Shown in pieces: positions 3 to 26,270 of a stretch of 64,000 bases of DNA (positions are counted from its first letter, which is position 1; each line of letters opens with the position of its first letter). The notes under the pieces were generated by a model that was not told the origin of the DNA, did not search any database, and worked only from the letters and a program-made list of their open reading frames with translations. Source of the DNA: a virus; IMG/VR virus record IMGVR_UViG_3300017917_004266, positions 28,990 to 92,989 of that record, one strand, 5' to 3'. The translations under genes were made by a program, and so were the position numbers.

Positions 3-1499
3 TTGACTGCTGGACTAGTATTATTTAATGATAGTACAATAAGTGGTTGGGGAAATACTGGAGCTTATTCAAATAGTGGAAATTATTTAACTGGAGTAAA
101 ACAAATAGGAGCAGGTGGAAACTTTTTAAATGCTTTATTGCAAAATGAAGTATTAACAGGCTGGGGGATAACTACAGGATTTTATCCAAAAATTGCTAGT
201 GGAGTCAAGCAATATAATAGTTCTCAATTTGGAACATATTATGAATATATAACTGGTCAAGAAATCAAAAATCTAGTCTCTGGTAACGCGCATTTTATAT
301 ACAACATAGAAGTAGAAAGACCAACTATAATAACAGAAATAACTACTGTTATCGTAAGCCAAATCTCTGGCTTTGAGAATCAAGTGCTATTTTCTGGAGT
401 AACTGGATATAATACTGGATGGTATAAAAATATTCCTCAATTTTGCGGGACAGGATTTCCAATGCATCTTGTATCTGGAATTATAGGAGTTATAACTGGA
501 AATGTATTAACTGGAATAGATATAACTACTTCATCATCTAGTTCTCAAAAAATAGTTTTAAATAATGAAACTTATCAAACTGGATTTTCTTCTGGAATTT
601 ATGATGCATCAAAGACTGGAAATTATATTTATGAATTTTCTTATATAAACAACGGATCTCAAGTTAATCTTTTTGATATCATTTATCTTGATTCTGGATT
701 TTATAGTTCTCAATCAAAAAATATTTTTAATCGAGCCAATGGATATATTGCAAATAAAACTACCAATTTAAATTATACAAAAAATTATACTTTGCAAAAA
801 AATCTAGATTATTTGAATTCTTTAGGAGTTGATTTGCTTTTACTTAATCAATTAATAGATAATAATGATATTTTAGAAATATATTTATTTAAAATTAATA
901 GTGGTTTAGATATTAATTTAAATAATTCATTATTATTAAGTAAAGCTTCTAAAAATTTTAGATTTGCAAATACTGGAGCAAATTACTCTGTAAATCTTAA
1001 TGGCATTGCACAAATTAGTGGTTTAGATTATTTACTTACTGGTACATTAGGGTCGCCAATAGCTTTATATGATATTTTTGATAATGTAGAAGGAGATTTC
1101 ATAAAAACTGGCGAAGCAATATTCACTTATACTGGTGAAACAGGAAGAAGTTTAAATAATAAAGATTTCTTATATTTGAATGGCCAAAAACTAATAAGTG
1201 GTTATCATTATAACTTTAATTCATCGAATATTAACTATAATACTGGAAATATACCTGTCACAGGTATAATTCATGCTTTCAATGTATTAATAGAGTATGA
1301 TAGATATACAGGTTCAATGTATACTTTTGATTTACCTAGATTTAGTAAAAATAGTGAATTAATATGGCTTAATGGAGTTAAATTAAAATCTGATAGTTAT
1401 TATGAAGTATCTGAAAATGATCAATTTTATAATCCAACTTTCTATGACAAAACAGATGTAATTATATATAATAATACGGATAATTATTTCAATGAGTAA
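3..1499 (+). CDS. RCC1-repeat structural protein, 5' partial
   Basis: The reading frame is open from the left edge, so the true start lies outside the window. The first 60 or so residues hold the end of an RCC1-type beta-propeller: two visible units of the form GWG...LTGVKQI.AG...ALL, closely like the seven units at the start of the 1164-residue protein at 14078. After a short Ser-rich linker (near residue 178) the remaining protein is beta-rich with many Thr-Gly and Ser-Gly pairs. RCC1 propellers are protein- or ligand-binding platforms; in a phage tail operon this is inferred to be an adsorption or fibre component. The last codons overlap the next start by 8 bases, indicating co-translation. 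The RCC1 call is good; the virion role is inference. Confidence 0.6.
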   Translation: MTAGLVLFNDSTISGWGNTGAYSNSGNYLTGVKQIGAGGNFLNALLQNEVLTGWGITTGFYPKIASGVKQYNSSQFGTYYEYITGQEIKNLVSGNAHFIYNIEVERPTIITEITTVIVSQISGFENQVLFSGVTGYNTGWYKNIPQFCGTGFPMHLVSGIIGVITGNVLTGIDITTSSSSSQKIVLNNETYQTGFSSGIYDASKTGNYIYEFSYINNGSQVNLFDIIYLDSGFYSSQSKNIFNRANGYIANKTTNLNYTKNYTLQKNLDYLNSLGVDLLLLNQLIDNNDILEIYLFKINSGLDINLNNSLLLSKASKNFRFANTGANYSVNLNGIAQISGLDYLLTGTLGSPIALYDIFDNVEGDFIKTGEAIFTYTGETGRSLNNKDFLYLNGQKLISGYHYNFNSSNINYNTGNIPVTGIIHAFNVLIEYDRYTGSMYTFDLPRFSKNSELIWLNGVKLKSDSYYEVSENDQFYNPTFYDKTDVIIYNNTDNYFNE

Positions 1500-4400
1500 A
1501 ATTAAAGTAGAAGCTATAACATTAAACGGCTCTAATGAATATATGGGAGGAAAAATTTATTATTGTAATTTTTCTCCTAATTTTAGTGAAAAACCAACGG
1601 AATTACAAATTAATGTAATTAATGAAAATGGTAATTATCAAACTCCTACGATAAATTATAATTCTCCAGTTAAGGTTAAAATAGGTTCACTTGATCTTGG
1701 AGATATGTATCCTTATAAATATAAAAATAGATATTCTTCTCAAGGAAATATATTAGAAATATCATTAATTGATCCAAGTTTTGTGCTAGATAAAATTTTT
1801 ATTGGGCTAAATGGAAAACATGGATGGATAAATAAATTTGCTAAAAGTATGCAAGATATGTCTAAAAAAACATTTAGTGAATATTTAGATTCTATCAATT
1901 CTTCTTCTTCTTCTTCTTCGGCTTCTTCATCTTCAAACGATAAAGGGTCAGATGTATTTGAAAAATTAACAGATAATTTTTGGCTTATAGGTAGACAATT
2001 TCATCCATGTGATGAAAACAAAGACAATATTATAGATTTTGATGAAGCTTTTAATGTAGACCCATGTGATCCATGCCCATCTTGTCCAGAGGATAAATAT
2101 GAAAATCGTTGTCAAGAACTTGCTTATACTACAATATTTGAAATTGGATATTCATTTAAAGATCTTGCTTCTGCATTTCAAGCTTTTAAGCCAAGGCAAG
2201 GCAGTACAGAAATAAATATAGAAATACCAGCTGGAATATCTGGAAATAAAGATAAATATGAAAAATTTTATAGAGATTTTTTTGGACCTTTAAGAGAAGT
2301 TTTAACATCTTGGGCTAATGAATTTGGATTAAATTGGTTTTATGATATAAAAAATAAAACAGTTAGATTTATTGATATTTCAACAAAAGAGATTCAAGTT
2401 CCAGTTAATACTATTCTAAGTTACTATAAAAATGATAAATTAATTTCTTATGAACACGAAGTCTCTTCAGAAAAAACTGTTCAAAGAGGAGCAATTTCTT
2501 GGTATGAAAGAGGTGGTGAAAGAAAAAGTTTTGATTGTTCAAAAGCCACTACTACAATTCTTTCAGCTTTATATGGAGCAGATTATTTAGGAAATAGAGG
2601 AAGAACTCTTTTAAATGGTAAAGAAGTAAATTCAAATTGTGACGTTGTTGGGTCTATTTTAAGAGGTTATAATCCATTACTTAGAGATTTATTTTGGCTT
2701 AGAACGATGTATGGTATGAGATCATCAAAAGATATGATTCAATATATTTCAGATTTTAGTGTTACAGCAAACTCTAGTTCAAGTTCTTCTAGTGGTGATG
2801 AAGAAGAATATGTTCTTGCAAATAATAAAGTAATACCTGAATATGGTGATATGCAAATATTAGCAGTTATAGATTGTAACTTATCAAAATCAGAAAAAGA
2901 AAAAACAATATTTCAAAAGATAGCAAATCTTAATTATTCAGATCTTATTCTTCAAATGAATGAATTAGATGCAATTAAATTAGTAAATAATAGTGGATTT
3001 TTTGTTGTAGCATATATTGATGAAATTGCTCTTGAAAAAAGATATGAAATGGAAGACGAGCTTTTTGACTTTTTAGGAAAATTTTATGCTAGAGAAAATT
3101 TATTCAGATTATGTGGTTTAACTGGTAATGAAGAGTTTGTTAAAAATAATACAAATATAGAATCTGCAGATGGAAGTGCTCAAATTTATTCCAAAAGAGA
3201 TGGAATAGGAAGTCATCCATTAAGTAAGTATAAATTTTATAAAAGTGGATATCTTGGTTGTATAGTAAATGATGGAAATGTTTCAAAGATTAATCCTGCA
3301 ACACCAGGTAAAAAACTTCCATCAAGTACTCAAGGATTTGGATTAACATTAAGTAGAATAAATAATCAAGATGTTGTTAGCTCGTCAGATACTCCTCAAG
3401 ATTATGTAAATGCTGCGGGTGGTGCGGGATCATTATTTTCTAATAAAAAATCAAATGAAACTATACCAAGATTTGAACAAACAGCCATCATTTTAGATCG
3501 TGAACCAAAATGGGTACCAGAACCACAAACTTTTCAAGAAAACTTTAATCAAAAAATCTCTGATAAATATGGAGAATTAGAATGGAAATTATTTGGATCA
3601 AATGGCATTCCTCCAAATTCAACTTGGATGACATCTGCTTATGGTGGTAATACTGGATTTATTAAAGATGGAACTGCTGGAAAAATTAAAGTATTTATTG
3701 TACAAACTGGAGGTTTCAAAGTAACACCTAGTTCGCCACAACAATTTGAATCAACTGTAGAACATCCAACAGATAAAACTGCAAACCAAACAAAGAAAAT
3801 GCTAAGAAGAGTTGGCGGTAAATATTCTTCAGAAACAGCCATAGGTTTATTAAATAATAAATGTCATAAAATTACAATAGAAGATGGAAAAGAACTGCCA
3901 ATAATATATACTCCGCCACATACACTTGTGCCAAAAGCAACAAAAAATTTAATAGAAAAAGATGTACTAAAACAAACTGAAAGTAGAGGTGATAAAGCTA
4001 CTTCATGTGATACTGCACTAAAATCAGAAAAATTCAGAGTCCCAGCTTATAGGGTTTATGTATCTCAATCATTTAATCAAAGTGTTACATTACCCAAAAT
4101 TCAAACTGGCGTTTATACAGATATGTCTTGCGCGCAAGGCGTAAGAAGTCTAGATGTAGTTTATACAAAATTTACAAATGATGATTTTAAATCATTTACT
4201 GGTTCTAATGGATATGGTTGTATACCAAATATGAAATATCTTAATGATTTACATGTTGCTTATACAGGAAATGTATTTTCTAATATTGATCCAGATGATA
4301 GTCTAAGTTTAGAAATTAAAGGATTACCTAGAATATCAGATTATCAAAGTGAAATTTTAAATGGACTTGAAAATATAAGTATTCAAATTACTGACCAAGG

Positions 4401-4509
4401 TGTTAATACAAATTTACAGTATGGAACTAAATTAGTAAAAGGAATTTCTCCTGATTTATTAAAATTTCAAAACTCTAGAAGATTTGACAGACAAGCTAAA
4501 GGCGTATAA
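1492..4509 (+). CDS. Large tail-hub-like structural protein with EF-hand loop
   Basis: A 1005-residue protein starting at an ATG inside the end of the previous gene. The segment around residues 220-340 (LREVLTSWANEFGLNWF followed by a short strand giving VRFID) resembles the barrel domain of gp27/late-control-D tail hubs, so a baseplate or tail-hub role is suggested but not proven. Residues 174-185 form a canonical calcium-binding EF-hand loop (Asp, Asn, Asp, Ile, Asp, Glu in the ligand positions), followed by a cluster of cysteines (CDPCPSCPEDKYENRC). Poly-serine linkers occur near residues 136-150 and 425-432. It sits in the middle of a run of virion genes. Identity as hub is tentative; virion membership is likely. 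Confidence 0.45.
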   Translation: MSKIKVEAITLNGSNEYMGGKIYYCNFSPNFSEKPTELQINVINENGNYQTPTINYNSPVKVKIGSLDLGDMYPYKYKNRYSSQGNILEISLIDPSFVLDKIFIGLNGKHGWINKFAKSMQDMSKKTFSEYLDSINSSSSSSSASSSSNDKGSDVFEKLTDNFWLIGRQFHPCDENKDNIIDFDEAFNVDPCDPCPSCPEDKYENRCQELAYTTIFEIGYSFKDLASAFQAFKPRQGSTEINIEIPAGISGNKDKYEKFYRDFFGPLREVLTSWANEFGLNWFYDIKNKTVRFIDISTKEIQVPVNTILSYYKNDKLISYEHEVSSEKTVQRGAISWYERGGERKSFDCSKATTTILSALYGADYLGNRGRTLLNGKEVNSNCDVVGSILRGYNPLLRDLFWLRTMYGMRSSKDMIQYISDFSVTANSSSSSSSGDEEEYVLANNKVIPEYGDMQILAVIDCNLSKSEKEKTIFQKIANLNYSDLILQMNELDAIKLVNNSGFFVVAYIDEIALEKRYEMEDELFDFLGKFYARENLFRLCGLTGNEEFVKNNTNIESADGSAQIYSKRDGIGSHPLSKYKFYKSGYLGCIVNDGNVSKINPATPGKKLPSSTQGFGLTLSRINNQDVVSSSDTPQDYVNAAGGAGSLFSNKKSNETIPRFEQTAIILDREPKWVPEPQTFQENFNQKISDKYGELEWKLFGSNGIPPNSTWMTSAYGGNTGFIKDGTAGKIKVFIVQTGGFKVTPSSPQQFESTVEHPTDKTANQTKKMLRRVGGKYSSETAIGLLNNKCHKITIEDGKELPIIYTPPHTLVPKATKNLIEKDVLKQTESRGDKATSCDTALKSEKFRVPAYRVYVSQSFNQSVTLPKIQTGVYTDMSCAQGVRSLDVVYTKFTNDDFKSFTGSNGYGCIPNMKYLNDLHVAYTGNVFSNIDPDDSLSLEIKGLPRISDYQSEILNGLENISIQITDQGVNTNLQYGTKLVKGISPDLLKFQNSRRFDRQAKGV

Positions 4510-4511
4510 AA

Positions 4512-6608
4512 ATGATAACAAATAATTTTTTATATAGAAATTTTCTAAATCAAACTGGAGATTTTAATACTAGTTGGTTAATTTCTATTGATAATACAAC
4601 TGGATCTGGAAAATTTGGTATAAGTGGAACAGGAAATATTTATGGTTATACAATTAAAAGCGGAGAAATATATGATCCATATAATAATTTACTAGGGTCA
4701 TATACATCAAATAAATCTTTTTCATTAAAAAATGATATAATAAATTCTAAAGATACATTATACTATAATAATAACCCAAAATATTTTTTTAAAACTGGAA
4801 ATTTTTTTAATGGACATAATTATAATTACTTCTTCGTTGATCCTACTGGATTAAATTTAGATTTTGATTTTATTATCAAAGGGGAAGCCACAACCTTACA
4901 AATATCTGGATTAAATATAAGATCTAAAAATGATAATACAAATGAAATAATAAATTATGTAACTGGAAGAATTGTCAATAATAAACCAGAATTAAATGTT
5001 AAAATTTTTGATGGATTTATAAGTAGTAATCCACAGTTTACATTATCTGGATTACCATTATCATTTTATGATACTGGATATTTTTATATAATAACAGATT
5101 CTGGAACAACACAATTTAATAATAGAAATTTTACATTACCAATTACATTTAATACAAATTATGGACAAATATCTTTTGATTTTAATCTTATAAATCAATA
5201 TATACCATTGCAATTTTCTAGCCTTATAGTAACTCCAAGCGGGAGTGTAAATATTTTTGACAATCAAGTTTTAGCATTCAGTGTCCAATATGGAACTAAT
5301 AGTGGTTCATATTTAGATATAGAATTAAATTATATAAGTGGTTCTACTGGATTTTTTAGTGGAAATATACCTTCCACAGGATATGTTACAGATACAATTT
5401 CTGGTATTATAACTGGCTCTGGCTATCTAGAAAAAATATTAAATGCTCAAGTTCTTTTAACTGGATATAGCCCTTACAAAGAAATTAATGACTCTGGTTA
5501 TGTTACTGGTTTAAAAATAAATAAATTTATATATGCTACTGGAGATGTAAATTTAAATTATTCTATTTCTGGTACTGGCTTAGGAACTGGATACGTTTAT
5601 TTAACAATACCATCTAGCGGAGAAATAACTGTAACAGTTTCTGGCGCGGTTCCATATATCGGTGGAGGACCTTTATTTTATAAAACTGGTGGATTTATTT
5701 CAACTGGATCTAGTGTTGATATAAATAATAATCCTATAGAAATTACTGGATTTTCTAGTAATGTAACTAATTTTGTTACAGCTTTTTATACTGGAATAAT
5801 AACTGGAGTATATTTAACAACTGGTCAATATTCAAATAAACTATTTACTGGTCTTCATACTGGATCATTAGCTGGAAAAGAAGTTATTGGTAAACCATAT
5901 TATCAATTAGCTACTGGATTTGGAACAGGAATAAGTAAAACTGGAATTGTAGATGCAGATTTTTTTAGATTTTTTGAAGGAGGAAATTACTTCTTTACAA
6001 AAAATATAACTGGTATATCTGGTTTTTTTGCACTTAGTGATTCAAATAGAGTTATAACTGGTTTATCTGGAATATTAACTTGTAAACAAAGTTTAGAAAA
6101 TTTTAATTATTCTGGAGTATCAAAAATTACTGGAATAAATAATTTTAATATATATATTGATGAGTGTGATGAAGAAACTATAATGTTTTATTTCTTAGCT
6201 ACTGGCCGCGCTTCAGAAGGATTTAAATTATATACTTCTTTAGATAATAAAATTATAGAAGAAAAAAATATTCCTAAATTTATTATAGTCGCAACTACTG
6301 GAAATGAAACAGAATTAGCATATCTAGAGAATTTACAAAATTTAACTGGAAATTCTTATGGTACTGGAATAAGAACTAGGATATCTCATTTAGGAAATAC
6401 TATAAGTGGTAGTGGATATTTTAGTGGATTATTTTCGGAAGGTGCTTGCGAAAATAATGGAATATGGGAACATAATTTTGTAAATTATACAATTACTACA
6501 GGAAATTTTTATACAAATAATTATATTAATAAATTTTCAAGTAAGATATTATCTTCAGAAGAAAATATAATTGAAGATTTTAATTATATTAAATTTAATA
6601 TATTATGA
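4512..6608 (+). CDS. Thr-Gly/Ser-Gly-rich beta structural protein
   Basis: A 698-residue protein beginning 2 bases after the preceding stop. It has no recognised domain. Its dominant feature is Thr-Gly, Ser-Gly and Asn-Gly pairs every 5-15 residues, separated by alternating hydrophobic/polar stretches rich in Asn, Ile, Tyr and Phe; this is the pattern of extended beta-structure with tight turns, as in fibre shafts or stacked beta-sandwiches. Only a few cysteines are present. The same composition recurs in the proteins starting at 3 and 20004, suggesting a family expanded by duplication. A tail fibre or decoration role is inferred from context alone. Confidence 0.5.
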   Translation: MITNNFLYRNFLNQTGDFNTSWLISIDNTTGSGKFGISGTGNIYGYTIKSGEIYDPYNNLLGSYTSNKSFSLKNDIINSKDTLYYNNNPKYFFKTGNFFNGHNYNYFFVDPTGLNLDFDFIIKGEATTLQISGLNIRSKNDNTNEIINYVTGRIVNNKPELNVKIFDGFISSNPQFTLSGLPLSFYDTGYFYIITDSGTTQFNNRNFTLPITFNTNYGQISFDFNLINQYIPLQFSSLIVTPSGSVNIFDNQVLAFSVQYGTNSGSYLDIELNYISGSTGFFSGNIPSTGYVTDTISGIITGSGYLEKILNAQVLLTGYSPYKEINDSGYVTGLKINKFIYATGDVNLNYSISGTGLGTGYVYLTIPSSGEITVTVSGAVPYIGGGPLFYKTGGFISTGSSVDINNNPIEITGFSSNVTNFVTAFYTGIITGVYLTTGQYSNKLFTGLHTGSLAGKEVIGKPYYQLATGFGTGISKTGIVDADFFRFFEGGNYFFTKNITGISGFFALSDSNRVITGLSGILTCKQSLENFNYSGVSKITGINNFNIYIDECDEETIMFYFLATGRASEGFKLYTSLDNKIIEEKNIPKFIIVATTGNETELAYLENLQNLTGNSYGTGIRTRISHLGNTISGSGYFSGLFSEGACENNGIWEHNFVNYTITTGNFYTNNYINKFSSKILSSEENIIEDFNYIKFNIL

Positions 6609-6613
6609 TTAGG

Positions 6614-6621
6614 TAGTGTAA
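6614..6621 (+). promoter_or_regulatory. AGTGTAA late-type motif
   Basis: TAGTGTAA lies 22 bases before the ATG at 6644, followed by the doubled purine ribosome site AAAGGAAAAAGG. The same arrangement recurs before the genes at 11459, 12698 and 20004. Confidence 0.5.
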
Positions 6622-6643
6622 AATATATAAAGGAAAAAGGAAA

Positions 6644-9403
6644 ATGGAATTACCAATATATTTTAATCAAAGGTTTTCTAGGGGCGCAGGGACAAGTGAA
6701 CAATTTGGTTATAGCACATCAATAAATGATGCTGGAAATATTATATCAGTTGGAACATATGGAGGTTCTGGAGTTTACGTATATAAAAGTGGACAAAATG
6801 GATCTTGGTATTTAGTAGATAAACTTACTGGTCAAAAAAGTTCAGATTTAGAAATAGGAAAATTTGGATATGATTTAAAATTAAATGGTTTAGGAAATAT
6901 TCTTGCTGTTAGTGCTCCTTTTCGTGATGGTGAAGATTTTTCACCTTATAATGGTAGAGTATTTATTTATACTGGTATAAATAATAGTTGGATTTTAAAT
7001 GATCAATTAAATGGTATTCCTGGATTTGCTCAATATTTTGGTCACAGTTTAGATGTAAATTATTTAGGAGATACAATTGCAGTTAGTTCGCGCGGACAAG
7101 GAGTATCTGGACAAGTATATATTTATACAAATTATGAAGATAATTGGCAATTAAGTCGTATTTTAACTGGTAAAAGTAATTCATTTAGTTATCCAAATAG
7201 CGTATCTTTAAATAAGTCTGGAAATTTAATTGCTTTTGGTTCAGCATACGAAAATCAAAATTCTGGAAAAGTTTATATATTAGATTGGAAAATACCATAT
7301 CAAATTAATTTAAATAATTTTGAATTAACTGATAATTCAGAAGATATAAATGGAATATATACATATCAAAGTATTGTGCCCTTTTCATATGCGGCTACAT
7401 CTGGATATAAACATAATTCTTTGGATAGTTGGATTTATTTTTCTCCAACTAATAATAGATGGGAATTAGAAGCTAATGATTCTCCTGAATTTTATAATGA
7501 TAGTTCAGATATAAATATTTTACCTTTTACTGGATGGAAAATTGGACTTGCACAAGGGGCACCAGATGAATTAACTACTGGAATTATAAATTATATACCA
7601 AAACAAATTACTGGAGGTAATACTGCAAGATTATTTGGTATAAACTTAGATCTCAATAATGATGGAGATAAAATCTTAATTGGATCTTGGTATTCTGATC
7701 TAGGTTCTGGAGCAGCATATTTATTTACAGGAAATAATTCAAATTGGATACTTTCTAAAAAATTTACAGGAGATAATAATGATAATAATTTATATTCAGA
7801 TCAAAGATTTGGATATAAAGTAGATTTGAATGGAGATGGAAATATAGCTTTAATTAGCGAAAGTAAAGATTTTAATGGAAATGGTCCTTCTGCTGGAGCA
7901 GTATATGTTTTTAGTAATAATGGTACTTGGGGACTTAATAAAAAAATAACTGGAGATTATGATATTGATTTTGGTGATAATTTTGGTTTTAGTTTTGCAT
8001 TAAATGATTCTGGAAATATTGCAATTATAGGATCAATTGGTGATGGAAATAATTATAAAGGTGCAGCATATTTATATTCAAATGCAAATATTCAATATTC
8101 TAATTTTGCTGGCGAAACAGAAGTAATTTATAATGCAACACCAATAGAATTAAAATGCGATATAATAACAGGAAATTTTTCAATAAATCTAGATGGTCAA
8201 GATAATTTTACTCCACTTTATAATACAAAACATAAATTTATTATTTATAAAAGTGGTATCAATTATACGACTGGATATTTACCTATATATGAGAGTGAAT
8301 ATTCAAATTACAATAATCAAAATATAATTAAATATTCGGGAAGCTTTGACAAAGGTAATTATCAAATTAAAATAAAAAGCATTTATAATGATACAAATAT
8401 TTCATTTCCTAATTTATGTAATAATGGTATACAGGTTGCAAATATTATAGATGTAAGTTATAGTAATAAATCTGGATTAGCTTTATTTAAAAATTGTTCT
8501 TCTACTTTATATAAAGATTTCTTAAACAATAATTCTAATTTAAATGAAGTTGCGAACATATATATAACTGACCGTTTAGATATAACTGGTTTTGATTTTA
8601 TTAATGATTATAAAACTTATGTTGATTATATAAAAACTTTGGAACCCGTAGAAAAAGAAAAAGAGGGTATTTCATTAAATAGTGGAATTGATCATGCGGT
8701 ATCTAGGCTTAATTGGAAAAATAAAATAAAAATAATAAATATAGTAACAAATAATATTCCATACATTGAATCTGATGCAGATGATTGCGAAGTAGCATTG
8801 AATAATGATTATTTCACAAACCCAATAGAAATAAAATATTCTGATCTTTTAAATAAAATGATAAGTTATTCAAATACTCAAAATATTTCATTTAATTTTA
8901 TATATTTAGATAAAGAATTAAATCTTAATTTAGATAAGAAAAATTGTTTATATGATGAAAAAGATATAAAAATTTTATATGAAAAAGCTGCTCAATTAGG
9001 AAAAGGTTCATTTGGAAATAATAATTTATCTCAAGTTATAAATTCACAATTAAATTTATCAAATAATTTAAAAAGAATGAGATTTTGCGAAAGTTCATCT
9101 AGTTCTAGTTCTAGTGCCATAGATCAAATATTTTTAGAATATACATATGGAATAAATTCTCCGCAAGTTATGCCATTAAATGCTTATGGAGGTAAATATA
9201 CTGGTTTAAAAAACGATATAATAATAAGTGGGGCAACTGCTCCTATTTTAGTAGATATAGTATATAGAAAAATTTCTGGTGAGAATATTGGTATATATGA
9301 TGGAGTTTATACAAATTTAACTGGTAATTGGCAGATAGAGTATTTTGTTTCTGATGCAGATCAAAAATTTGCTACAAAAGATAGAAAGGTTTATATTATA
9401 TAA
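6644..9403 (+). CDS. Integrin-like FG-GAP propeller plus VWA-like domain protein
   Basis: A 919-residue protein with a strong ribosome site. The N-terminal half has seven FG-GAP units (starting FGYSTSIN, FGYDLKLN, FGHSLDVN, a degenerate SYPNSVSLN, FGINLDLN, FGYKVDLN, FGFSFALN). Units 5 and 6 carry the calcium loop DLNNDGD/DLNGDGN seen in integrin alpha subunits. About 100 residues are inserted between blades 4 and 5. Around residues 598-740 is a von Willebrand factor A-like domain with the metal-site signature DVSYS (Asp603, Ser605, Ser607), although the later Thr and Asp ligands look altered. A short poly-Ser linker near residue 818 precedes a C-terminal beta domain. In a phage this is most simply a cell-surface binding (adsorption) protein. 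The propeller is clear; the VWA call is moderate. Confidence 0.65.
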   Translation: MELPIYFNQRFSRGAGTSEQFGYSTSINDAGNIISVGTYGGSGVYVYKSGQNGSWYLVDKLTGQKSSDLEIGKFGYDLKLNGLGNILAVSAPFRDGEDFSPYNGRVFIYTGINNSWILNDQLNGIPGFAQYFGHSLDVNYLGDTIAVSSRGQGVSGQVYIYTNYEDNWQLSRILTGKSNSFSYPNSVSLNKSGNLIAFGSAYENQNSGKVYILDWKIPYQINLNNFELTDNSEDINGIYTYQSIVPFSYAATSGYKHNSLDSWIYFSPTNNRWELEANDSPEFYNDSSDINILPFTGWKIGLAQGAPDELTTGIINYIPKQITGGNTARLFGINLDLNNDGDKILIGSWYSDLGSGAAYLFTGNNSNWILSKKFTGDNNDNNLYSDQRFGYKVDLNGDGNIALISESKDFNGNGPSAGAVYVFSNNGTWGLNKKITGDYDIDFGDNFGFSFALNDSGNIAIIGSIGDGNNYKGAAYLYSNANIQYSNFAGETEVIYNATPIELKCDIITGNFSINLDGQDNFTPLYNTKHKFIIYKSGINYTTGYLPIYESEYSNYNNQNIIKYSGSFDKGNYQIKIKSIYNDTNISFPNLCNNGIQVANIIDVSYSNKSGLALFKNCSSTLYKDFLNNNSNLNEVANIYITDRLDITGFDFINDYKTYVDYIKTLEPVEKEKEGISLNSGIDHAVSRLNWKNKIKIINIVTNNIPYIESDADDCEVALNNDYFTNPIEIKYSDLLNKMISYSNTQNISFNFIYLDKELNLNLDKKNCLYDEKDIKILYEKAAQLGKGSFGNNNLSQVINSQLNLSNNLKRMRFCESSSSSSSSAIDQIFLEYTYGINSPQVMPLNAYGGKYTGLKNDIIISGATAPILVDIVYRKISGENIGIYDGVYTNLTGNWQIEYFVSDADQKFATKDRKVYII

Positions 9404-9405
9404 TT

Positions 9406-10914
9406 ATGAAAATAAATACAATTCCATTTCCACGAGAAGAGATGTTCGGCGGTAATAATTTCGGTCAAGGAATTGCTATCAACAGTGGAGATTTGTGTTT
9501 AGTTGGAGCTCCTGGATATTATGATGGTGGTGGAGTTTTTATTTATCGTAAATACGATTCAGAATGGGGATGGAATAAAATTCAAGATATATATTCTGAT
9601 AACCCAAATTATGGTGATTTTTTTGGATATTCTGTTTCTATAAATGATAAAGGAGATGTCATAGCAATTGGTGCCCCAAATGCATCTTTAGGAGATGGCG
9701 AAGTTCATATCTATACTGGAAATAAATCTAAATGGAATAATGTTTGTAAAATAAGCGGTAATCTTTCTGGCAATGAGCATTTTGGTTTTGATTTAAAATT
9801 AAATTTAAGTGGAAATAGATTAATAGTTGGTACAATATCATCATCAAATACTGGCAAAGCTTATTTATATTCTGGTAGCGGAAATAATTGGAATTTAATA
9901 ACTGGTTTTTACGAAGTAGATGGTTATAATAATTCTGCAACCGCATATGGCAATAAAGTCTCAATTAGTAATAATGCAGTTGTTATTGGTTCAAAACTTA
10001 ACTCTAATAAAGGCGCTGTATTTATTTATACAGGAAATAATAATATTTGGAAAAAACATCAAATAATTTCTGGTTTAAATTCTGATTCTTTTTTTGGTGA
10101 TAATTTATATATTAATAATACTGGAAGTTGTATATTAATTAGTGCTCCAAATGATATATCTAATTCTGGCGTAGTATATTTGTATGAAAAAATAGGAAAT
10201 TATTGGCAGAATACATATTCTATAACAGGCGAATGGAAAGATACTGGTGAATTACCTCATCTTGGCCGATCTTTATATATAAATGAAAGCGGTAATTTTA
10301 TATTTACTTCCGATGATACAAATTATGGTACAATTTATAATTATAAAAAAGACACAAATTGGTATAAAAATTTAGTTATTAAAAATCAAAAAACATTTAA
10401 TGGAGATAAATTTGGGGGAAATTTTACTGTTACTAAAGATTCTAGCAAACTTTTGATAGGTGTTCCTAATTTTATATATACTCAAGGTCAAGCTTATATA
10501 TATTCCGAGCCTTGGAGCAATTTTAAAGAATATTATGGAGTAAATCAAATTGAAACAGAATCTAATTGTATTTGTAATCAATTATTAAATTGTGGCAATT
10601 GTTGTGGTGTTACTCCTTCATTTACTATAAATACAGGATATTTTAATAATTTAAATCAATTTGCAATAAATATAAATATTTTAATAAAAAATAATAATTG
10701 TAATTCAATTCTAGACACATATAATTTATATTCTAATGGTAATAAAATATATACAGATATATATCAAACTGGACCTTTTCAACAATATAATAAAATATTA
10801 GATTTAAAAAATATTAGTTTTCTCAACAATAATTTAATAAATTTAGAATTAAAAGTTTATAATTTAGGTAATATTTATCTATACGAAACTGGTATTAATA
10901 TTAACAATTATTAA
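9406..10914 (+). CDS. Seven-bladed FG-GAP (integrin-type) propeller protein
   Basis: A 502-residue protein starting 2 bases after the previous stop. Seven FG-GAP blades are visible, beginning FGQGIAIN, FGYSVSIN, FGFDLKLN, YGNKVSIS, FGDNLYIN, LGRSLYIN and FGGNFTVT, most ending in a G.VYIY-type strand. The calcium loops are mostly degenerate (NDKGD, NLSGN), unlike the neighbour upstream. After the propeller comes a cysteine cluster (CICNQLLNCGNCC, near residue 388) and a small beta domain. It looks like a paralogue of the N-terminal half of the preceding protein. Probably a virion attachment component; the propeller fold is well supported, the role is inferred. Confidence 0.65.
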   Translation: MKINTIPFPREEMFGGNNFGQGIAINSGDLCLVGAPGYYDGGGVFIYRKYDSEWGWNKIQDIYSDNPNYGDFFGYSVSINDKGDVIAIGAPNASLGDGEVHIYTGNKSKWNNVCKISGNLSGNEHFGFDLKLNLSGNRLIVGTISSSNTGKAYLYSGSGNNWNLITGFYEVDGYNNSATAYGNKVSISNNAVVIGSKLNSNKGAVFIYTGNNNIWKKHQIISGLNSDSFFGDNLYINNTGSCILISAPNDISNSGVVYLYEKIGNYWQNTYSITGEWKDTGELPHLGRSLYINESGNFIFTSDDTNYGTIYNYKKDTNWYKNLVIKNQKTFNGDKFGGNFTVTKDSSKLLIGVPNFIYTQGQAYIYSEPWSNFKEYYGVNQIETESNCICNQLLNCGNCCGVTPSFTINTGYFNNLNQFAININILIKNNNCNSILDTYNLYSNGNKIYTDIYQTGPFQQYNKILDLKNISFLNNNLINLELKVYNLGNIYLYETGININNY

Positions 10915-10954
10915 TAATTTAGACTTTTTTCATATATATGATATAATTTAATAT

Positions 10955-11389
10955 ATGGAAAATAATACAATCTTTCATCAATATTTTACACAAGTAGTAT
11001 TTTGGCTTATAACAAATGATATAATATTTACAAAAGCTTTCAAAGAGTTCGCTCCACAAGTAGCAGACAAAATAGAAACTTTTTCTAAAAACCCAAATTG
11101 TTCTTGTCGTGGAGCAATAGGAGATTATATTAATTCAAGTGAAAGTAATTATAGCAATACAAAAAGATTTGTATTAGATTTTCTTCAAAAAAATCCTCAA
11201 GTTAAAATAGATTTAGAAAAAATAGAAAAAGATAATAAAACTGTTGATGCAAGAGGCCAAGTTTTTAGAATAGCTAAAAATGACAAAGCATTTCAAGATT
11301 TTTATAGATATATGATTGAAAATAGATTTCAATATCGCCATTTTTCTATTGTACCAGATGGCGAAAGTTGGGTTATATTTTTCCTTTAA
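10955..11389 (+). CDS. Hypothetical protein
   Basis: A 144-residue protein I do not recognise. It looks soluble and mostly helical: an aromatic N-terminus (HQYFTQVVFWLIT), a short CSCRGAIGDYI segment, a lysine-rich middle and a C-terminus ending in WVIFFL. No Thr-Gly repeats and no poly-Ser, so it differs from its structural neighbours. It could be a chaperone or assembly factor for the adjacent fibre genes, but nothing in the sequence shows this. Confidence 0.55.
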   Translation: MENNTIFHQYFTQVVFWLITNDIIFTKAFKEFAPQVADKIETFSKNPNCSCRGAIGDYINSSESNYSNTKRFVLDFLQKNPQVKIDLEKIEKDNKTVDARGQVFRIAKNDKAFQDFYRYMIENRFQYRHFSIVPDGESWVIFFL

Positions 11390-11458: not shown

Positions 11459-12670
11459 ATGTCTACAGGTTATTTTGAGTTTAATGAAACTTATTGTCAT
11501 GATTTACCAACCTTAATTACTGGAATAACATATCAAATACCAACTGGTAAAGATGACAAAATCCTGATTGATATTAATAGTATTATTAGTGGATTTTATC
11601 GTAAGCTAGATAGTACAAGAAATCCAAATATAATAAATATTTCAAATTTACCTAATAATACTTATTATAATGCTCAAACAAAATATTTCCAAGGATATTT
11701 ACAAGATGATGGAGTTTATAGCTTGCATGTACATTTACTTGAATCTGGCGTTCTTTGCGATAAAGTAATCAAATTAAATTGTTATAATCCTAATAAAAAA
11801 TACATATATAAAGTAAACTATCCTAGCAATATAGGATTTATTAAATATAACCCTTTAGAAAGACTTGGAATAATTAATTTTCATGACTCAGATGCTAGAA
11901 AATATTTTTCTAAAACAAAAATATCTAATGTGGAAATTCAAGATAAAATAAGTGATTTTATTGGAGGACTAAAGAGTTTAAATATTTGGGATAAACTTGA
12001 AAATATTTGGATATTTAGATCAGAATATAATCTTGCTAGTGGAGCCAGTGGTTTTATTGATTTAAAAAATCCTAATTTTAGTGGATATATTTCTTCACCA
12101 ACTTATCAAGTAAATCATACATCAAGTGGTTATAAATTTGTTAATAATAATTCAAAATTTAATCTTTCTAGTAATATTAAATTTACTGGAGCAAATATAA
12201 GTATGTTTAGCGTTCTTGAAAGCAATAAAACTGCCGTACCTCATTTACCATATAGTACTTTATTAGCCCCAGAAAGTTATCAACAGAGTGGATTTAGATT
12301 TGGAATATTTAATACTTTAAATTATAGGAAATGGTTTACTTTATGGAATAGTGAGAGCATTCCGTCTAATGGTTTTGAAGTTAAAACAAATGCAGCAGGT
12401 CAAAGTTCAGAATATTCTTTCTTATCTGCTGGTATACAGAATAGCGGTACAGGATTTATACAAATTAATAGTGAATCACCAGATACATCAGCTAAATCAT
12501 ACAAAGAATATGGCTATGGAATTAATACATTTCCATATGTCGCTGGTGGTACAAATGTAATACCAAATCGTATAGTATTTTTTGCTATTTCAAAACAAAA
12601 TATCCTTAATAATCATTCTGGATTGATGAATTTAGTAAAAAACACAATTTGTGCTGATCTTAATTTATAG
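11459..12670 (+). CDS. Structural protein, unknown beta-rich
   Basis: A 403-residue protein with ATG preceded by AAGGAAAAAGG. No named family recognised. The N-terminal 120 residues form an alternating beta pattern, followed by a region (residues about 180-400) with SGASGFIDL, SGYISSPTYQ and ISMFSVLES segments that suggest a lectin-like or concanavalin-like jelly roll (NIWIFRSEY, GANISMFSVLE), as found in receptor-binding fibres. This resemblance is by eye only. It has its own late-type motif, and its stop codon overlaps the motif of the next gene. Confidence 0.5.
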   Translation: MSTGYFEFNETYCHDLPTLITGITYQIPTGKDDKILIDINSIISGFYRKLDSTRNPNIINISNLPNNTYYNAQTKYFQGYLQDDGVYSLHVHLLESGVLCDKVIKLNCYNPNKKYIYKVNYPSNIGFIKYNPLERLGIINFHDSDARKYFSKTKISNVEIQDKISDFIGGLKSLNIWDKLENIWIFRSEYNLASGASGFIDLKNPNFSGYISSPTYQVNHTSSGYKFVNNNSKFNLSSNIKFTGANISMFSVLESNKTAVPHLPYSTLLAPESYQQSGFRFGIFNTLNYRKWFTLWNSESIPSNGFEVKTNAAGQSSEYSFLSAGIQNSGTGFIQINSESPDTSAKSYKEYGYGINTFPYVAGGTNVIPNRIVFFAISKQNILNNHSGLMNLVKNTICADLNL

Positions 12671-12675
12671 TGTAA
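12668..12675 (+). promoter_or_regulatory. AGTGTAA late-type motif
   Basis: TAGTGTAA beginning on the stop codon of the previous gene and lying 22 bases before the ATG at 12698, followed by ATAGGAATAAGG. Confidence 0.5.
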
Positions 12676-12697
12676 TTTATCAATAGGAATAAGGAAA

Positions 12698-14074
12698 ATG
12701 GCAGATAAAAGTTATAATGTAAGTGTTGGGTATAAAAATATATCTAATATATATAATGATCTTGGATCTAGTTTGACTGGATTAAAAACAGTTAATGGAA
12801 ATTCTACATTTTATTTATTTAAATCATCACCAATTAATAAAATTGGTTATGTATTTGATCCAAATCAATTTCCAGCTTTTAGTTATGAATCAATAACCAT
12901 ATTTTATCAAGGTACAACTGGAGGAAATTCTAGTGGAATTATGATGGATAATAATACATGGATAAAAGATGATTTCTCAACAAATGTAGATAATTATCCA
13001 ATACCAGAAAATTCTCTTATATATCCTCAAATAGGTAATCCATCTACAATTAAAGTTGGAGATGGAGTAATAATAAAAGATCATCATTGTTACTATTTAA
13101 ATGAAATAGAAGCATCTGGTCTTTATTTTGAAAAAGGAAAAACATATCAATTTGTTCAAACAGGAATTTCAAACAGCGGCAATCCATTAAATATCTATGT
13201 TGATGAATATGGTAACAAAAAATTAGAAAAATATGTATCAATTAGTGGTACAGCTGGAGTTGACAGATACGTTACTGTTTCTATACCAAAATCTTATAAA
13301 GAAACAAATACTCTTTATTATGGAAATGAAAGTGGAGATTTTTTTGGCGCGCCAATTAAATTAATATCAACAGATTATTATTTAAAACATAATATAAAAC
13401 TTTTATGTTTTGGAGCAGTACATGATGGCGTTAAATATTATCTCCCAGATAGTATCTTAGATCAGAAATTTTTATTTACACAATCTTCATTAAATTATAC
13501 ATTATTAAAATCAGGAATTTATCCTATAGTTTCTAATCATGAAAATAATCAATATTCTACTTCTACATTATATAGAAGAAAAGACACGCTAGATATAAAC
13601 TTAGTTAAGTCTACGGGATATAACGGTACTATAATGGATAGAGACTTTGTTATAAATTATTTTGGCAATAAATTAAAATATACAAGAAATCCAATTGAAG
13701 CTTATGATTGGCCAGATCTTGGATGGTTATATTTTTTATTGGAGTATTTTACATTTGGTTGTTCTGGTCAATTAGATGCTTTTGAAATTGATCCAAAAAA
13801 ATACTATCAATATGGATATCAACTTTCTGGATGTGAACAATGTATTGAAAAAATTGTTTTAACTACTGGAGAGGGTAATATTTATAGCGGTAAAATAGAT
13901 ATTTATTATAATCCATTAAAATTAATTAATAATAGTTTTAGTAATCAATTTTTAAATGTAACAAGCGGTGATATAAGAACAGAAGATTTTATCTCCTTTG
14001 ATAATGTTCCAAATGTAAAATATACAAAAACTTTTTATCAAGATACTACTTATAGCATTCCAAGGAAAATATAA
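12698..14074 (+). CDS. Structural protein, unknown
   Basis: A 458-residue protein in the tail/fibre operon with a good ribosome site (ATAAGGAAAATG). It is rich in Tyr, Asn and Gly with scattered Thr-Gly and Ser-Gly pairs. A short stretch near residues 385-397 (YQLSGCEQCIEKIVLTTG) carries a CxxC pair. No catalytic motif or known repeat is visible. It ends 3 bases before the RCC1-repeat gene, so the two are probably translated together. Virion component by context; function unknown. Confidence 0.5.
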   Translation: MADKSYNVSVGYKNISNIYNDLGSSLTGLKTVNGNSTFYLFKSSPINKIGYVFDPNQFPAFSYESITIFYQGTTGGNSSGIMMDNNTWIKDDFSTNVDNYPIPENSLIYPQIGNPSTIKVGDGVIIKDHHCYYLNEIEASGLYFEKGKTYQFVQTGISNSGNPLNIYVDEYGNKKLEKYVSISGTAGVDRYVTVSIPKSYKETNTLYYGNESGDFFGAPIKLISTDYYLKHNIKLLCFGAVHDGVKYYLPDSILDQKFLFTQSSLNYTLLKSGIYPIVSNHENNQYSTSTLYRRKDTLDINLVKSTGYNGTIMDRDFVINYFGNKLKYTRNPIEAYDWPDLGWLYFLLEYFTFGCSGQLDAFEIDPKKYYQYGYQLSGCEQCIEKIVLTTGEGNIYSGKIDIYYNPLKLINNSFSNQFLNVTSGDIRTEDFISFDNVPNVKYTKTFYQDTTYSIPRKI

Positions 14075-14077
14075 TTT

Positions 14078-17000
14078 ATGTCTTCTTCTTTTATTAATTT
14101 GAAAGTAACTGGATGGGGATGGGAAGGATACAATATAGCAACAGGAGGGAATTTATTAACTGGAGTAATTGATATTAGCGCAGGTTATTACCATAATTTA
14201 GCTATTTTAAGTGGTGGAATAGTAACTGGTTGGGGACAAAGTCAAGGAGGAGAACTTGACTGTGTAGGTTTAACTGGAGTTAGTGGAATTAGCGCTGGTC
14301 TAGGATATAGTTTAATACTTTTTAATAATAAAACAATAACTGGATGTGGTAGAAATTCTTATGGAATAGCCACTGGAGGATCTGAATTAACTGGAGTTAA
14401 AAAAGTAATTGCAGGAAAATATAATAGTTTAGCACTTTTAGAAAATGGAATAGCAACAGGATGGGGATCTTTAACATGGGGAATTACAACTGGAGGAAAT
14501 GACTTAACTGGAATTAAAGATTTATACTTAAGCAAACCAGCGCCAAATACTGGACAACATTGGGTTATAGCATTATTAAATGATAATACAATAACTGGTT
14601 GGGGATTCAATGATGGCCATCAAAATATATATGGTGGAAATAACCTAACAGGAATAACTAACATAGCAATAGGATATGCTCATACAATTGCTCTTTTAGA
14701 AAATGGTACAATAACTGGTTGGGGATATGATTCTGGTGGAGGAGAGTCTATTGGCAATAGATCTAATATTAAGCAAATAGAAGCTGGATATCAAAGTAAT
14801 TTAGCTCTTTTAAATGATGGAACAGTTACTGGATGGGGAAATTCTGGATCAAATTATATAGATTGGAATGTAACTTCAGAATTAATTAATGTTCAAAAAA
14901 TTAGTTATGGTTACATACATGGTTTAGCATTATTACCACTATCTTCATCTTCATCTTCATCTTCATCTTCATCTTCATTTAATTTAAATAATATTTTTGA
15001 ATCTAATACTGGATTATTTTTATTTGATAATATTCAAATCCAAAATAAAAAGATAAGACCATCTTTTGATACTGGAGTTTATAATTATAAAACTGGACAA
15101 ATTAATATAAATAAATATATACAAAAATATATTAATCTTCCAGTATCTGGACTAAATTATAATAAACTTGCTGGATATAGGGTTTTAAATGATATATCTT
15201 TTATACCATTAAAAAATTATGTTGGTCATATTTATACTGGTTTATATTCTGGAAAAGAACCAGCAGAATATGAGACTGGTTTATATGGAATTCCAAAAGT
15301 AACAACAAATATAATATATGACAAAATAAATAGAATTGATTACCAAGCGTCAAAATATAAATATAATGTAAATGATAAATATAATCAACAGTTTTTACCA
15401 AAAACAGGCGAACCACATATTTTACTATTAGACTTAAATCTTTATGGATTTGAAGAAGATAAAATAGAAGATTGTGATATTGAAATGAACGCCGTAATTT
15501 TAAAAACAGGTTTCTTCAAAGATATACCTAAAAATCCTAGTATTTTAAACTTAAATATTATAGATAATATAAAACCAGTAGGTATTGTAGATCATATATA
15601 TCAATATATGGCTCAAAAAAGAGTATTACAAAATTTTGAAACAAATAATTTTATTAATTACGATAGTTCTTATTATAGTAATCAATCTTTAGAATTAAAC
15701 AATGAATATAAATATATAAAGAATGAAATTACAATAAACCCACCAATACTTTCTACTCAAAAAAATATTGGATTACCATGTTTATTTCAATATAAACCCA
15801 TAAATAATAATATAAAATATAATATTGGAAAATATAAATTTTTAGTTTATGATAAATCAAATAATTATCTACAAAGTGGCAATTATATAACTGGAACACA
15901 AACTGGATTTCTATACTTTTTAAGTCCAGGAACTTATATTACAATTATTTCTGGTAATGAAAGTGATTTTGTTTATTCAAATAATTCTCTAAATGAAAAG
16001 AATGAAAATATTAATTTACTTTCCATGGATGTAAATTTTGTAACTGGAGAAAAATTAAAAGAAATCTATATTGAAAATCAAGATAAAATTTGGGCAAGTT
16101 ACTTTCTTGGGTCAACAGAACTTATATCTGGTTCTGGATTTAATAGTTTAAATAGCGATTCTCCTGTAGCTTTTGCAATTGATTTTGAAAGAAATTTAAG
16201 CGGACAAGTAAATAGTCCATTTTTATTCTATAGAGAAATAACTGGTAATTATACAAATCTTTGCGCACCAAAAATTATCGTAATAACACCAAAAGCTCAA
16301 GCTTGTACTACTGCATTTTGTACAATTTGCCAAGATGCTGCTCAAAAATATAAAAAAGGAGAAACTTATATTGATGTTCCAAAAAAATATTTACCTTTAA
16401 CTATTTATGGTCAATATTTAAATTTTTATGAATCTCTAAGTGATTCTATCTATAGAGTTGCAATAGATGAAAATTTAACAAATTTATGTTGTTATTGTAA
16501 AGAAGTTGGATGTAGAGATTTATCTACTAAAATTAATATAAATTTAAATCTTCCTAAAGATGCAGTAAGTGGTGACGCAATATATTCTGGAGTATTTTTC
16601 TTAGATGATTCAAATCCATTGACTGTCCAAACAAAATATAATTACTATTATTATTCTGGACAAATTGCATTTAATAGTTTTTATGAAGGAGATAAAATAA
16701 TATTTAAACAATATCCTTTTGATTTTGATAGGGTATATAATACGTTATACGGAGAAAGACCTTATATTCCAGAATATAAAACAGAATTCATATATTCTAA
16801 TACAAGTGTAGGAAATAATTATTTTAGTGGTAAAACAGATTTAATTAATAAAATAAATCTAAAATTCGCATCATCAGGTTTATATTCTTGGAAACCATTA
16901 AAATATAATAAAACTCCACAATTTGAATATGGACCATTATTAACTGGAATAGACGCTGGAATTGATATAAGTGGAAATGATATTATTAATATAATTTCAT

Positions 17001-17572
17001 TAAGAAGTGGTAAATTTGGGAGTCATGATATAAAATTAGATTTACAACCAAGATTACAAATTTATAATTATCTTGTACCTAAAATAATAACATTACAAGT
17101 TTCTGACGATAATATAAATTGGACAGGAATAGTAACATCTCAAAATAGACAACCAGTTAATACATATCTTAAAAATCCAAATGCTATAGTTGGAGATATT
17201 TTATATGATCAAATAGAAAATACAAAATATACCGTCACAAAGAACATACCAATTTCATCTGAAATAGAAAATAAACAAGAAGAAGAAAAAGAAGAATCTT
17301 TAGAAGATTTATTAAATAGATTAAAAAGTGGAAATTTACAAATGTCTGGTCAAATTATTTGTTTGAAAGATCCAAATGGAAGTGGACAGGTTTGTGGAAC
17401 TGGTTTTATTGATTATCAATTACTTAATTTTTCTTGTAGACTTAGTGGTAGCGGAGAACAACCAGAAGAAACTGGCAAACCAAAACTTGAAACAGAGAAA
17501 AAAGAATTGGGATCATCATTAACAGAAGATATAGATAGATTTAGAATAGGATTTTATGATTATTTATCATAA
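14078..17572 (+). CDS. RCC1 seven-bladed propeller virion protein
   Basis: A 1164-residue protein. Residues 1-287 contain seven RCC1 units, each opening with GWG or GCG and closing with a hydrophobic AxLxNGxxT segment; seven is the number in eukaryotic RCC1 and bacterial BLIP-II propellers. A 14-serine linker (residues 288-301) joins it to a long beta-rich body with Thr-Gly pairs and two cysteine clusters (ACTTAFCTICQDAA near residue 744, LCCYCKEVGC near residue 805). The C-terminal 100 residues include an acidic lysine-rich segment. Likely a receptor-binding or tail-surface protein. The propeller is very well supported; the binding partner is unknown. Confidence 0.7.
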   Translation: MSSSFINLKVTGWGWEGYNIATGGNLLTGVIDISAGYYHNLAILSGGIVTGWGQSQGGELDCVGLTGVSGISAGLGYSLILFNNKTITGCGRNSYGIATGGSELTGVKKVIAGKYNSLALLENGIATGWGSLTWGITTGGNDLTGIKDLYLSKPAPNTGQHWVIALLNDNTITGWGFNDGHQNIYGGNNLTGITNIAIGYAHTIALLENGTITGWGYDSGGGESIGNRSNIKQIEAGYQSNLALLNDGTVTGWGNSGSNYIDWNVTSELINVQKISYGYIHGLALLPLSSSSSSSSSSSSFNLNNIFESNTGLFLFDNIQIQNKKIRPSFDTGVYNYKTGQININKYIQKYINLPVSGLNYNKLAGYRVLNDISFIPLKNYVGHIYTGLYSGKEPAEYETGLYGIPKVTTNIIYDKINRIDYQASKYKYNVNDKYNQQFLPKTGEPHILLLDLNLYGFEEDKIEDCDIEMNAVILKTGFFKDIPKNPSILNLNIIDNIKPVGIVDHIYQYMAQKRVLQNFETNNFINYDSSYYSNQSLELNNEYKYIKNEITINPPILSTQKNIGLPCLFQYKPINNNIKYNIGKYKFLVYDKSNNYLQSGNYITGTQTGFLYFLSPGTYITIISGNESDFVYSNNSLNEKNENINLLSMDVNFVTGEKLKEIYIENQDKIWASYFLGSTELISGSGFNSLNSDSPVAFAIDFERNLSGQVNSPFLFYREITGNYTNLCAPKIIVITPKAQACTTAFCTICQDAAQKYKKGETYIDVPKKYLPLTIYGQYLNFYESLSDSIYRVAIDENLTNLCCYCKEVGCRDLSTKININLNLPKDAVSGDAIYSGVFFLDDSNPLTVQTKYNYYYYSGQIAFNSFYEGDKIIFKQYPFDFDRVYNTLYGERPYIPEYKTEFIYSNTSVGNNYFSGKTDLINKINLKFASSGLYSWKPLKYNKTPQFEYGPLLTGIDAGIDISGNDIINIISLRSGKFGSHDIKLDLQPRLQIYNYLVPKIITLQVSDDNINWTGIVTSQNRQPVNTYLKNPNAIVGDILYDQIENTKYTVTKNIPISSEIENKQEEEKEESLEDLLNRLKSGNLQMSGQIICLKDPNGSGQVCGTGFIDYQLLNFSCRLSGSGEQPEETGKPKLETEKKELGSSLTEDIDRFRIGFYDYLS
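14941..14976 (+). repeat. Hexanucleotide microsatellite (ATCTTC)x6
   Basis: Six perfect tandem copies of ATCTTC encode most of the poly-serine linker after the RCC1 propeller. Unlike other poly-Ser tracts here, which mix AGT/TCT/TCA/TCG codons, this one is a pure DNA repeat and so prone to slippage in in-frame 6-base steps. Confidence 0.85.
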
Positions 17573-25628: not shown

Positions 25629-26270
25629 TTAATGAAAATTTTCTCCATATTTAGGTAAAAATGCATGTTTTATTTCTATATTTGGTTCTACTATTATTCT
25701 ATGTCCAAATGCACGAACTTTCTCAAAAAAAGCTACATGATCCAATCTTTTATCATTAATATCATATTTTATTTTTTTATATAAATGAGCTGGAATAATA
25801 AAACAAGTTCCTACTGAATTAACTTCTGTTCTAATATCTCCATTAGATTTATTATATGGTGGTTTAAAATCAAATTTTATTCCTTGAGAATCAATAAAAC
25901 CATCAATATCATAGAATCTTTTCCAAGGCCACCAATCATTATTTTCTATATAAACATATGGCGCAACTACTTCTGTAGTAGAAATTGATAATAATTTTTC
26001 TATAATATCAAAAGGATATTCTACTATATCTACATCCATCCAAAAAACATGAGTATATTCATCCGTTAAATTATCTTCTATAATTTTATTTCTTAATTTT
26101 ACTAATTTTGCATATCTGTGTTCATTGCCTTCAATATATCCATCATATATAGCTCTCTTTTTATTTTTAAATGTTAAGTTATTAAATATATTATCTGCAT
26201 TTTGTTTCCAAAAAAACCAAGCTCCTTTTGGAGATATTAATTGTGGTATAAGAACTTTAGCTTCATTCAT
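25629..26270 (-). CDS. Anp1/GT62-like glycosyltransferase
   Basis: A 213-residue protein with features of the Anp1/Mnn9 family: ARN/RNK-type segment KLVKLRNKIIED, the metal/donor motif FWMDVDIVEYPFDIIEKLL (DxD at DVD, near residue 78), VAPYVYIEN, and EVNSVGTCFIIPAHLYKK followed by HVAFFEKVRAFGHR, the acceptor-side helix. Its length is typical of the catalytic core alone. It overlaps the previous gene by 8 bases (ATG inside the end codons) and ends 3 bases before the GT9 C-half, so it sits exactly between the two halves of a GT9 enzyme. It probably adds a sugar to a glycan built by this cluster. Confidence 0.55.
   Translation of the reverse strand: MNEAKVLIPQLISPKGAWFFWKQNADNIFNNLTFKNKKRAIYDGYIEGNEHRYAKLVKLRNKIIEDNLTDEYTHVFWMDVDIVEYPFDIIEKLLSISTTEVVAPYVYIENNDWWPWKRFYDIDGFIDSQGIKFDFKPPYNKSNGDIRTEVNSVGTCFIIPAHLYKKIKYDINDKRLDHVAFFEKVRAFGHRIIVEPNIEIKHAFLPKYGENFH

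Follow-up and report, generated by a model that had tools for sequence, protein, structure and literature searches.

Pilus-tip adhesins of the PilC/PilY1 and PilB type are filament-tip proteins that combine a VWA domain with a β-propeller (PilY1) or act as carriers of exchangeable effectors (PilB, PilC/PilY1) (PMC8179133, PMC8806160, PMC6322766). In PilC/PilY1 the PilC-type propeller is the constant part and the N-terminal VWA domain varies. Integrin alpha subunits have a seven-bladed FG-GAP propeller fold followed by an Ig-like domain, with calcium loops of the DxDxDGxxD type in blades 5-7; half of the human alpha subunits carry a VWA domain on the same chain (PMC3192720), placed between blades 2 and 3. 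The receptor-binding tail fibres of contractile injection systems, which derive from phage tails, contain VWA, Ig-like and propeller modules and show much domain swapping, but there the fibres that combine VWA with Ig-like domains belong to a separate group, the propellers are β-propeller lectin domains, and FG-GAP, RCC1 and integrin are not mentioned (PMC12923769). Archaeal tailed viruses also encode VWA/MIDAS proteins, in their case AAA ATPase partners or cobaltochelatase subunits in other gene neighbourhoods (PMC7911831, PMC8651126). FG-GAP_2 (PF14312) proteins are encoded by cyanophages S-TIM5 and S-MbCM6, where they are annotated as virion structural proteins, by Vibrio phage nt-1 and by Sinorhizobium phage Phosso, and no VWA domain was found in those that were checked. 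In the open-access literature we found no paper joining FG-GAP with VWA in a phage tail.

We analysed a window of 64,000 nucleotides (positions 28,990 to 92,989 of the 92,989-base virus record IMGVR_UViG_3300017917_004266) with an ORF at 6644-9403 that starts with ATG and encodes a 919-aa protein consisting of an FG-GAP propeller, an Ig-like domain, a VWA domain, a Ser linker and an Ig-like tail. The ORF, its features and the neighbouring genes from 1492 to 11389 all lie on the plus strand. Upstream, the order is a putative major capsid protein, a tail-tube-like protein with a PHROG minor tail protein match (E 7.5e-5), a putative tape measure and putative tail-tip proteins, most of these upstream names being given by position and look and not by family match; nearer to the ORF follow a 1226-aa protein with an RCC1 propeller, a 1005-aa hub-like tail protein (1492-4509) and a conserved 698-aa protein (4512-6608). 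Directly 5' of the start codon lies an intergenic element (GTGTAAAATATA..AAAGGAAAAAGGA, 6609-6643). Downstream we found a second FG-GAP propeller protein with its own C-terminal domain (9406-10914), which is co-inherited with the VWA gene, then a 144-aa protein (10955-11389) and a 403-aa protein. After them come a gene product that matches a tail-fibre PHROG (E 1.4e-6) and a 1164-aa protein that begins with an RCC1 propeller. The same phage encodes a DNA polymerase (III alpha-like), a DnaB-like helicase, a UvsX-like recombinase and a ribonucleotide reductase.

The gene order from the capsid and tail-tube-like genes to the tail-fibre-like gene is conserved in seven contigs, namely the window and six others (L001, L005, L007, L008, L009 and L010), which make up the family studied here and all come from uncultured phages. 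This order and the PHROG tail matches, which give modest family support, uphold the earlier placement of the gene in a tail module, and it is mainly the gene order that points to a tail location of the VWA protein. A role of the VWA protein as an AAA-ATPase partner, as in archaeal viruses, was considered and set aside, as the gene instead sits among tail genes. The hub protein had no relative among the isolated phages of the collection searched, a search of the bacterial genome collection gave no relative of the Ig-VWA core or of the window-type propeller, and a scan with the neighbouring FG-GAP protein brought up no further phage.

Two further features of the region were observed. An element of the form GTGTAA(A/T) occurs at 6616 and 12670 of the window and at 1095, 3806, 8337, 12636 and 18342 of L003, recurring by the stop codons or just before the start codons of capsid and tail genes; it may be a late promoter or have some other regulatory role. 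A short way past the tail module, on the opposite strand, positions 26263-28179 encode a 638-aa protein with a glycosyltransferase PHROG match (E 7.2e-14).

A Pfam scan of the window protein (E up to 1) returned FG-GAP_2 in three stretches (52.1 bits against a cut-off of 23, E 7.5e-14) and one weak Ig-like match; neither VWA nor the PilC-type β-propeller was among the hits. A search with PF13517 gave no matches, because the propeller repeats belong to PF14312. We therefore read the architecture from two AlphaFold models built on shallow alignments, one of the core (residues 499-818; seven orthologues, mean pLDDT 67.7) and one of the propeller (residues 1-498; three orthologues, mean pLDDT 69.6). 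In the latter, the strands fall into seven four-stranded groups by our reading of the strand list, with FG-type repeats starting near residues 21, 74, 132, 183 (degenerate), 331, 389 and 447, and an N-terminal strand (residues 6-13) is available to complete blade 7 and close the ring. Together with the Pfam match above its cut-off, these groups bear out the seven blades that the sequence-only reading had proposed for this part of the protein (FG-GAP_2 propeller, residues 1-480, positions 6644-8083), the variable head. The top structural matches of the model were integrin alpha chains over model residues 3-486 (for alphaM, Z 35.7, rmsd 3.2, 352 residues aligned), and WD40 propellers came almost equal with Z about 33. 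We rejected a recent origin of the window propeller by copying from the neighbouring gene, as the two propellers share about 30% protein identity and almost no DNA similarity, which leaves at most an old relation.

Blade 4 carries an inserted module of about 100 residues (residues 217-318, positions 7292-7597, delimited by model and alignment) that had gone unmentioned in the sequence-only reading. It is present in the window and L008, absent from L010, and weakly similar (E 0.002) to part of the window phage's own 1226-aa tail protein, the one with an RCC1 propeller. Unlike the alpha-I insert of integrin, it is β-rich and not a VWA domain. The propeller repeats also differ from those of integrin in family, the integrin motif being defined on PF01839. 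Of two supposedly intact DxNxDGD calcium loops, the first was found as described (DLNNDGD, residues 336-342, positions 7649-7669), while the second reads DLNGDGN. Both DLNNDGDKI and DLNGDGNIA are without the Asp at the ninth and last position of the integrin calcium loop, and neither loop is conserved: the first becomes DLNNSGD in L008 and DLNGSGD in L010, and the second TLNGEGN and VLNGNGD, respectively.

The core model shows an Ig-like sandwich (residues 511-581, positions 8174-8386) followed by a Rossmann-type VWA fold (residues 596-811, positions 8429-9076), both kept in all seven family members by alignment and model. The VWA-like domain suspected behind the propeller is therefore recovered, and structure prediction returned both things on which the sequence-only reading had been made to depend, a VWA fold across residues 598-740 and no fewer than seven blades. 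The resemblance to solved structures came from fold comparison only, with Foldseek E-values down to 9.9e-8 and VIA Z-scores up to 18.3 over about 180 residues (BatB 18.3, CMG2 17.5, the pilus tip protein Mfa5 17.5, the integrin alpha2 I domain 17.4). Sequence searches of the PDB with the protein, with two-sequence and seven-sequence core profiles and with the L009 core gave nothing useful. A VWA_2 sequence match was obtained in three of the seven family members (best E 7.9e-4, 20.4 bits), none of them above the curated Pfam cut-off of 27, and the window copy gave no VWA match by sequence. According to the models, the gene encodes a tail protein whose two main domains are predicted to fold like parts of integrin.

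The alignment of the seven cores was then inspected for the MIDAS signature DxSxS...T...D, which no family member carries in full. The DxSxS residues named earlier (Asp603, Ser605 and Ser607, within DVSYS at 8450-8464) are exact, and D-x-S-x-S-N-x-S-G is invariant in all seven. As had been suspected, the rest of the site is altered. The Thr position is Ile676 in the window (8669-8671), Ile or Val in five of the seven, Ser in L007 and Thr in L009; the third residue, Asp, is Asn703 in the window (8750-8752) and Asn throughout the family, as TNN or TNS. In PilB, an Asp to Ala change at the equivalent position abolishes metal binding (PMC8179133). Because the MIDAS is altered and the calcium loops are not kept in the two closest propeller orthologues, metal dependence is unlikely as a shared property of the family, and to judge by the alignments the propeller loops and the MIDAS are both unlikely to have been conserved as working parts. 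DxSxS may be so strictly conserved for structural reasons, although a metal or ligand site could still be in use there. With its fold and DxSxS kept and its MIDAS altered, the VWA domain would more likely dock to other proteins than mediate metal-dependent adhesion.

We next compared what precedes the core in the seven phages. The N-terminal slot holds an FG-GAP propeller of one type (type A) in the window, L008 and L010, a type B FG-GAP propeller in L007 and an RCC1 propeller in L005, and it is empty in L001 and L009. The L007 propeller is 26.5% identical to that of the window, closest (46.5%) to an extra propeller in its own next gene, and 27-37% identical to the FG-GAP_2 proteins of S-TIM5, S-MbCM6, nt-1 and Phosso; the RCC1 propeller of L005 is likewise nearest to an RCC1 propeller inserted in its own next gene. 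In all seven phages, with or without a propeller, the gene starts right behind one conserved intergenic element, so these changes are clean replacements between the start codon and the Ig-like domain. Truncation or assembly error as the origin of the two propeller-less genes was discarded, since both are open from a start codon beside that element and lie on two separate contigs. With two of the seven phages having no propeller at this site, the head is not essential for the family.

These findings bear on the proposal that propeller and VWA domain form one ligand-binding head, a true integrin-like, metal-dependent device. The fold comparisons, with integrin alpha propellers on top and integrin I domains among the VWA matches, and the invariant DxSxS speak for it. 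However, the propeller is missing in two phages and replaced by RCC1 in one, the MIDAS Thr and Asp are altered, the calcium loops are incomplete and not conserved, and the VWA domain lies downstream of the propeller and Ig-like domain and is not inserted, so that we regard such a device as highly improbable. Only the Ig-VWA core is constant across the seven phages, and an integrin-like architecture is not what evolution kept: the likeness to integrin holds for the folds of both domains and fails for their combination as a unit, in which the propeller is optional and interchangeable. With the altered sites, the metal dependence once proposed becomes unlikely as a feature of the whole family, while a protein-binding adsorption device remains a plausible description. 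By analogy, the nearest working parallel would be the PilC/PilY1 and PilB pilus-tip adhesins and not integrin, with the differences that here the VWA domain is constant and the propeller varied, the propeller belongs to another family, the domain order is reversed, the MIDAS is altered and the gene belongs to a phage tail.

The C-terminal end varies as well, with four kinds among the seven phages. In the window, the core is followed by a poly-Ser linker and a short Ig-like tail (9092-9400) unlike the C-termini of the six relatives; L008 and L010 have a Pro/Ser linker, a Cys-rich part and a charged end, L001 and L005 another Cys-rich form, and L007 and L009 nothing after the core. Elsewhere in the window, positions 17618-19150 encode a 510-aa protein rich in Ser, Pro, Gly and Cys, with a run of 28 serines, whose last 46 residues match the C-terminus of the L008 VWA protein (52%; the form shared by L008 and L010); by this similarity it appears to be a tail module moved to a separate gene.

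Propellers were also observed in other genes of the tail module. In L005, the downstream FG-GAP protein (11551-14046, 831 aa) has an RCC1 propeller at about residues 358-630 within its FG-GAP propeller, whose repeat resumes at residue 652, making a propeller within a propeller. The same downstream gene is enlarged to 1331 aa in L007 (17392-21387) and 1503 aa in L009 (16121-20632) by an RCC1 region, a second FG-GAP propeller and long poly-Ser runs, followed by the conserved C-terminal domain. The N-terminal RCC1 propeller of the 1164-aa window protein (14078-17572) is absent from its 881-aa orthologue in L005, apparently the same kind of propeller gain or loss in another tail gene. In the cultured phage Phosso, a very large unannotated protein (L002, 5613-16489) contains at least 13 FG-GAP_2 stretches together with Laminin_G domains.

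RCC1 and FG-GAP cassettes in several genes of one tail module, and the tolerated absence of a propeller in L001 and L009, are what one would expect if the propellers had no specific receptor and were decoration or structural filler at the tail tip, loosely selected and coming and going by recombination. Against this, reading frame and blades are intact in every case. The C-terminal modules also vary alongside the propellers, and this at the distal end of the tail module, as is usual for host-recognition genes. We consider filler improbable.

To place these changes in the history of the family, we compared gene trees, with the hub protein (62-90% identity among the seven) as backbone. On the hub tree the window clusters with L001 and L005, apart from L007, L010 and L008, which form another group; on the core tree, L007 pairs with L009, and the window goes with L008 and L010. 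The tree of the 144-aa protein also joins L007 and L009, against the hub tree. Between L007 and L010, identity is 90% for the hub and 80% for the 698-aa protein, against only 39% for the core and 37% for the 140-aa protein (144 aa in the window); between L007 and L009 it is 64%, 63% and 61% for hub, 698-aa protein and core, and 83% for the end of the FG-GAP gene. Forcing L007 with L010 on the core tree cost 163 log units (p-AU 5.7e-82), and forcing L007 with L009 on the hub tree cost 187 (p-AU 2.2e-128); both were rejected. The VWA gene thus moves between lineages as a block with its next two neighbours, and the exchange junction lies behind the 698-aa gene. It is L007 that chiefly supports this recombination, which is less certain for the window itself: the window with L001 alone was rejected on the core (p-AU 1.6e-6), but the window with L001 and L005 was not (p-AU 0.061). 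The pairing of FG-GAP with VWA occurs in two separate places of the core tree, with dissimilar propellers (window, L008 and L010; L007).

The same data could be read as pointing to the VWA core itself as the receptor-binding domain, with the propellers as spacers or accessory binders and the two deep core alleles (L007 and L009 against the other five) as two exchanged receptor specificities. The core is exchanged between lineages and diverges faster than its neighbours, with 39-63% identity to the window against 62-79% for the hub and 698-aa proteins; its DxSxS is invariant, and bacterial VWA tip adhesins bind ligands via the VWA domain (PilB, PMC8179133). On the other hand, the core is the only constant part of a protein that varies at both ends, and all seven have Asn in place of the MIDAS Asp that PilB requires to bind metal (PMC8179133). 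On balance we think it unlikely that the core binds the receptor.

Based on these findings, we propose that the gene probably encodes a modular tail-tip adhesin, in which a conserved Ig-VWA carrier bears an exchangeable propeller head, in a family of uncultured tailed phages, and that it is better read as a modular adhesion protein with an evolutionarily swapped head than as a phage integrin. As a rule of thumb, variable adhesins are anchored to the particle by their constant part and meet the host with the variable one, from which we infer that Ig-VWA is the tail-tip dock and the propeller the head. The Ig-like and VWA unit would hold the protein in the tail-tip complex, its partners probably being the products of the next two genes (FG-GAP and 140-aa), because these are inherited with the VWA gene. 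The N-terminal slot would present an FG-GAP or RCC1 propeller to the host surface, most likely to a glycan or an outer-surface protein, and the head would be changed by gain, loss or replacement of the propeller as well as by exchange of the whole block of VWA, FG-GAP and 140-aa genes. More tentatively, host recognition may evolve here by exchange of whole propellers, with the VWA carrier accepting unrelated superfamilies (FG-GAP, RCC1) in one slot and propellers also being inserted inside the propeller of the next tail gene, a mode unlike the common exchange of tail-fibre tips.

For the RCC1 proteins of other phages, a possible role in ordering DNA has been discussed (phAPEC6, PMC7247149), and the RCC1 propellers found here in tail genes offer an alternative view of them. 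With Phosso, phage FG-GAP propellers could be studied in a cultured phage. As the core tree shows, domain shuffling can give rise to an "integrin-like" set of domains. If the VWA core is a standard tail-tip socket for interchangeable propellers, the family would amount to a set of naturally occurring head swaps, with propellers of two unrelated superfamilies at one and the same site of orthologous proteins.
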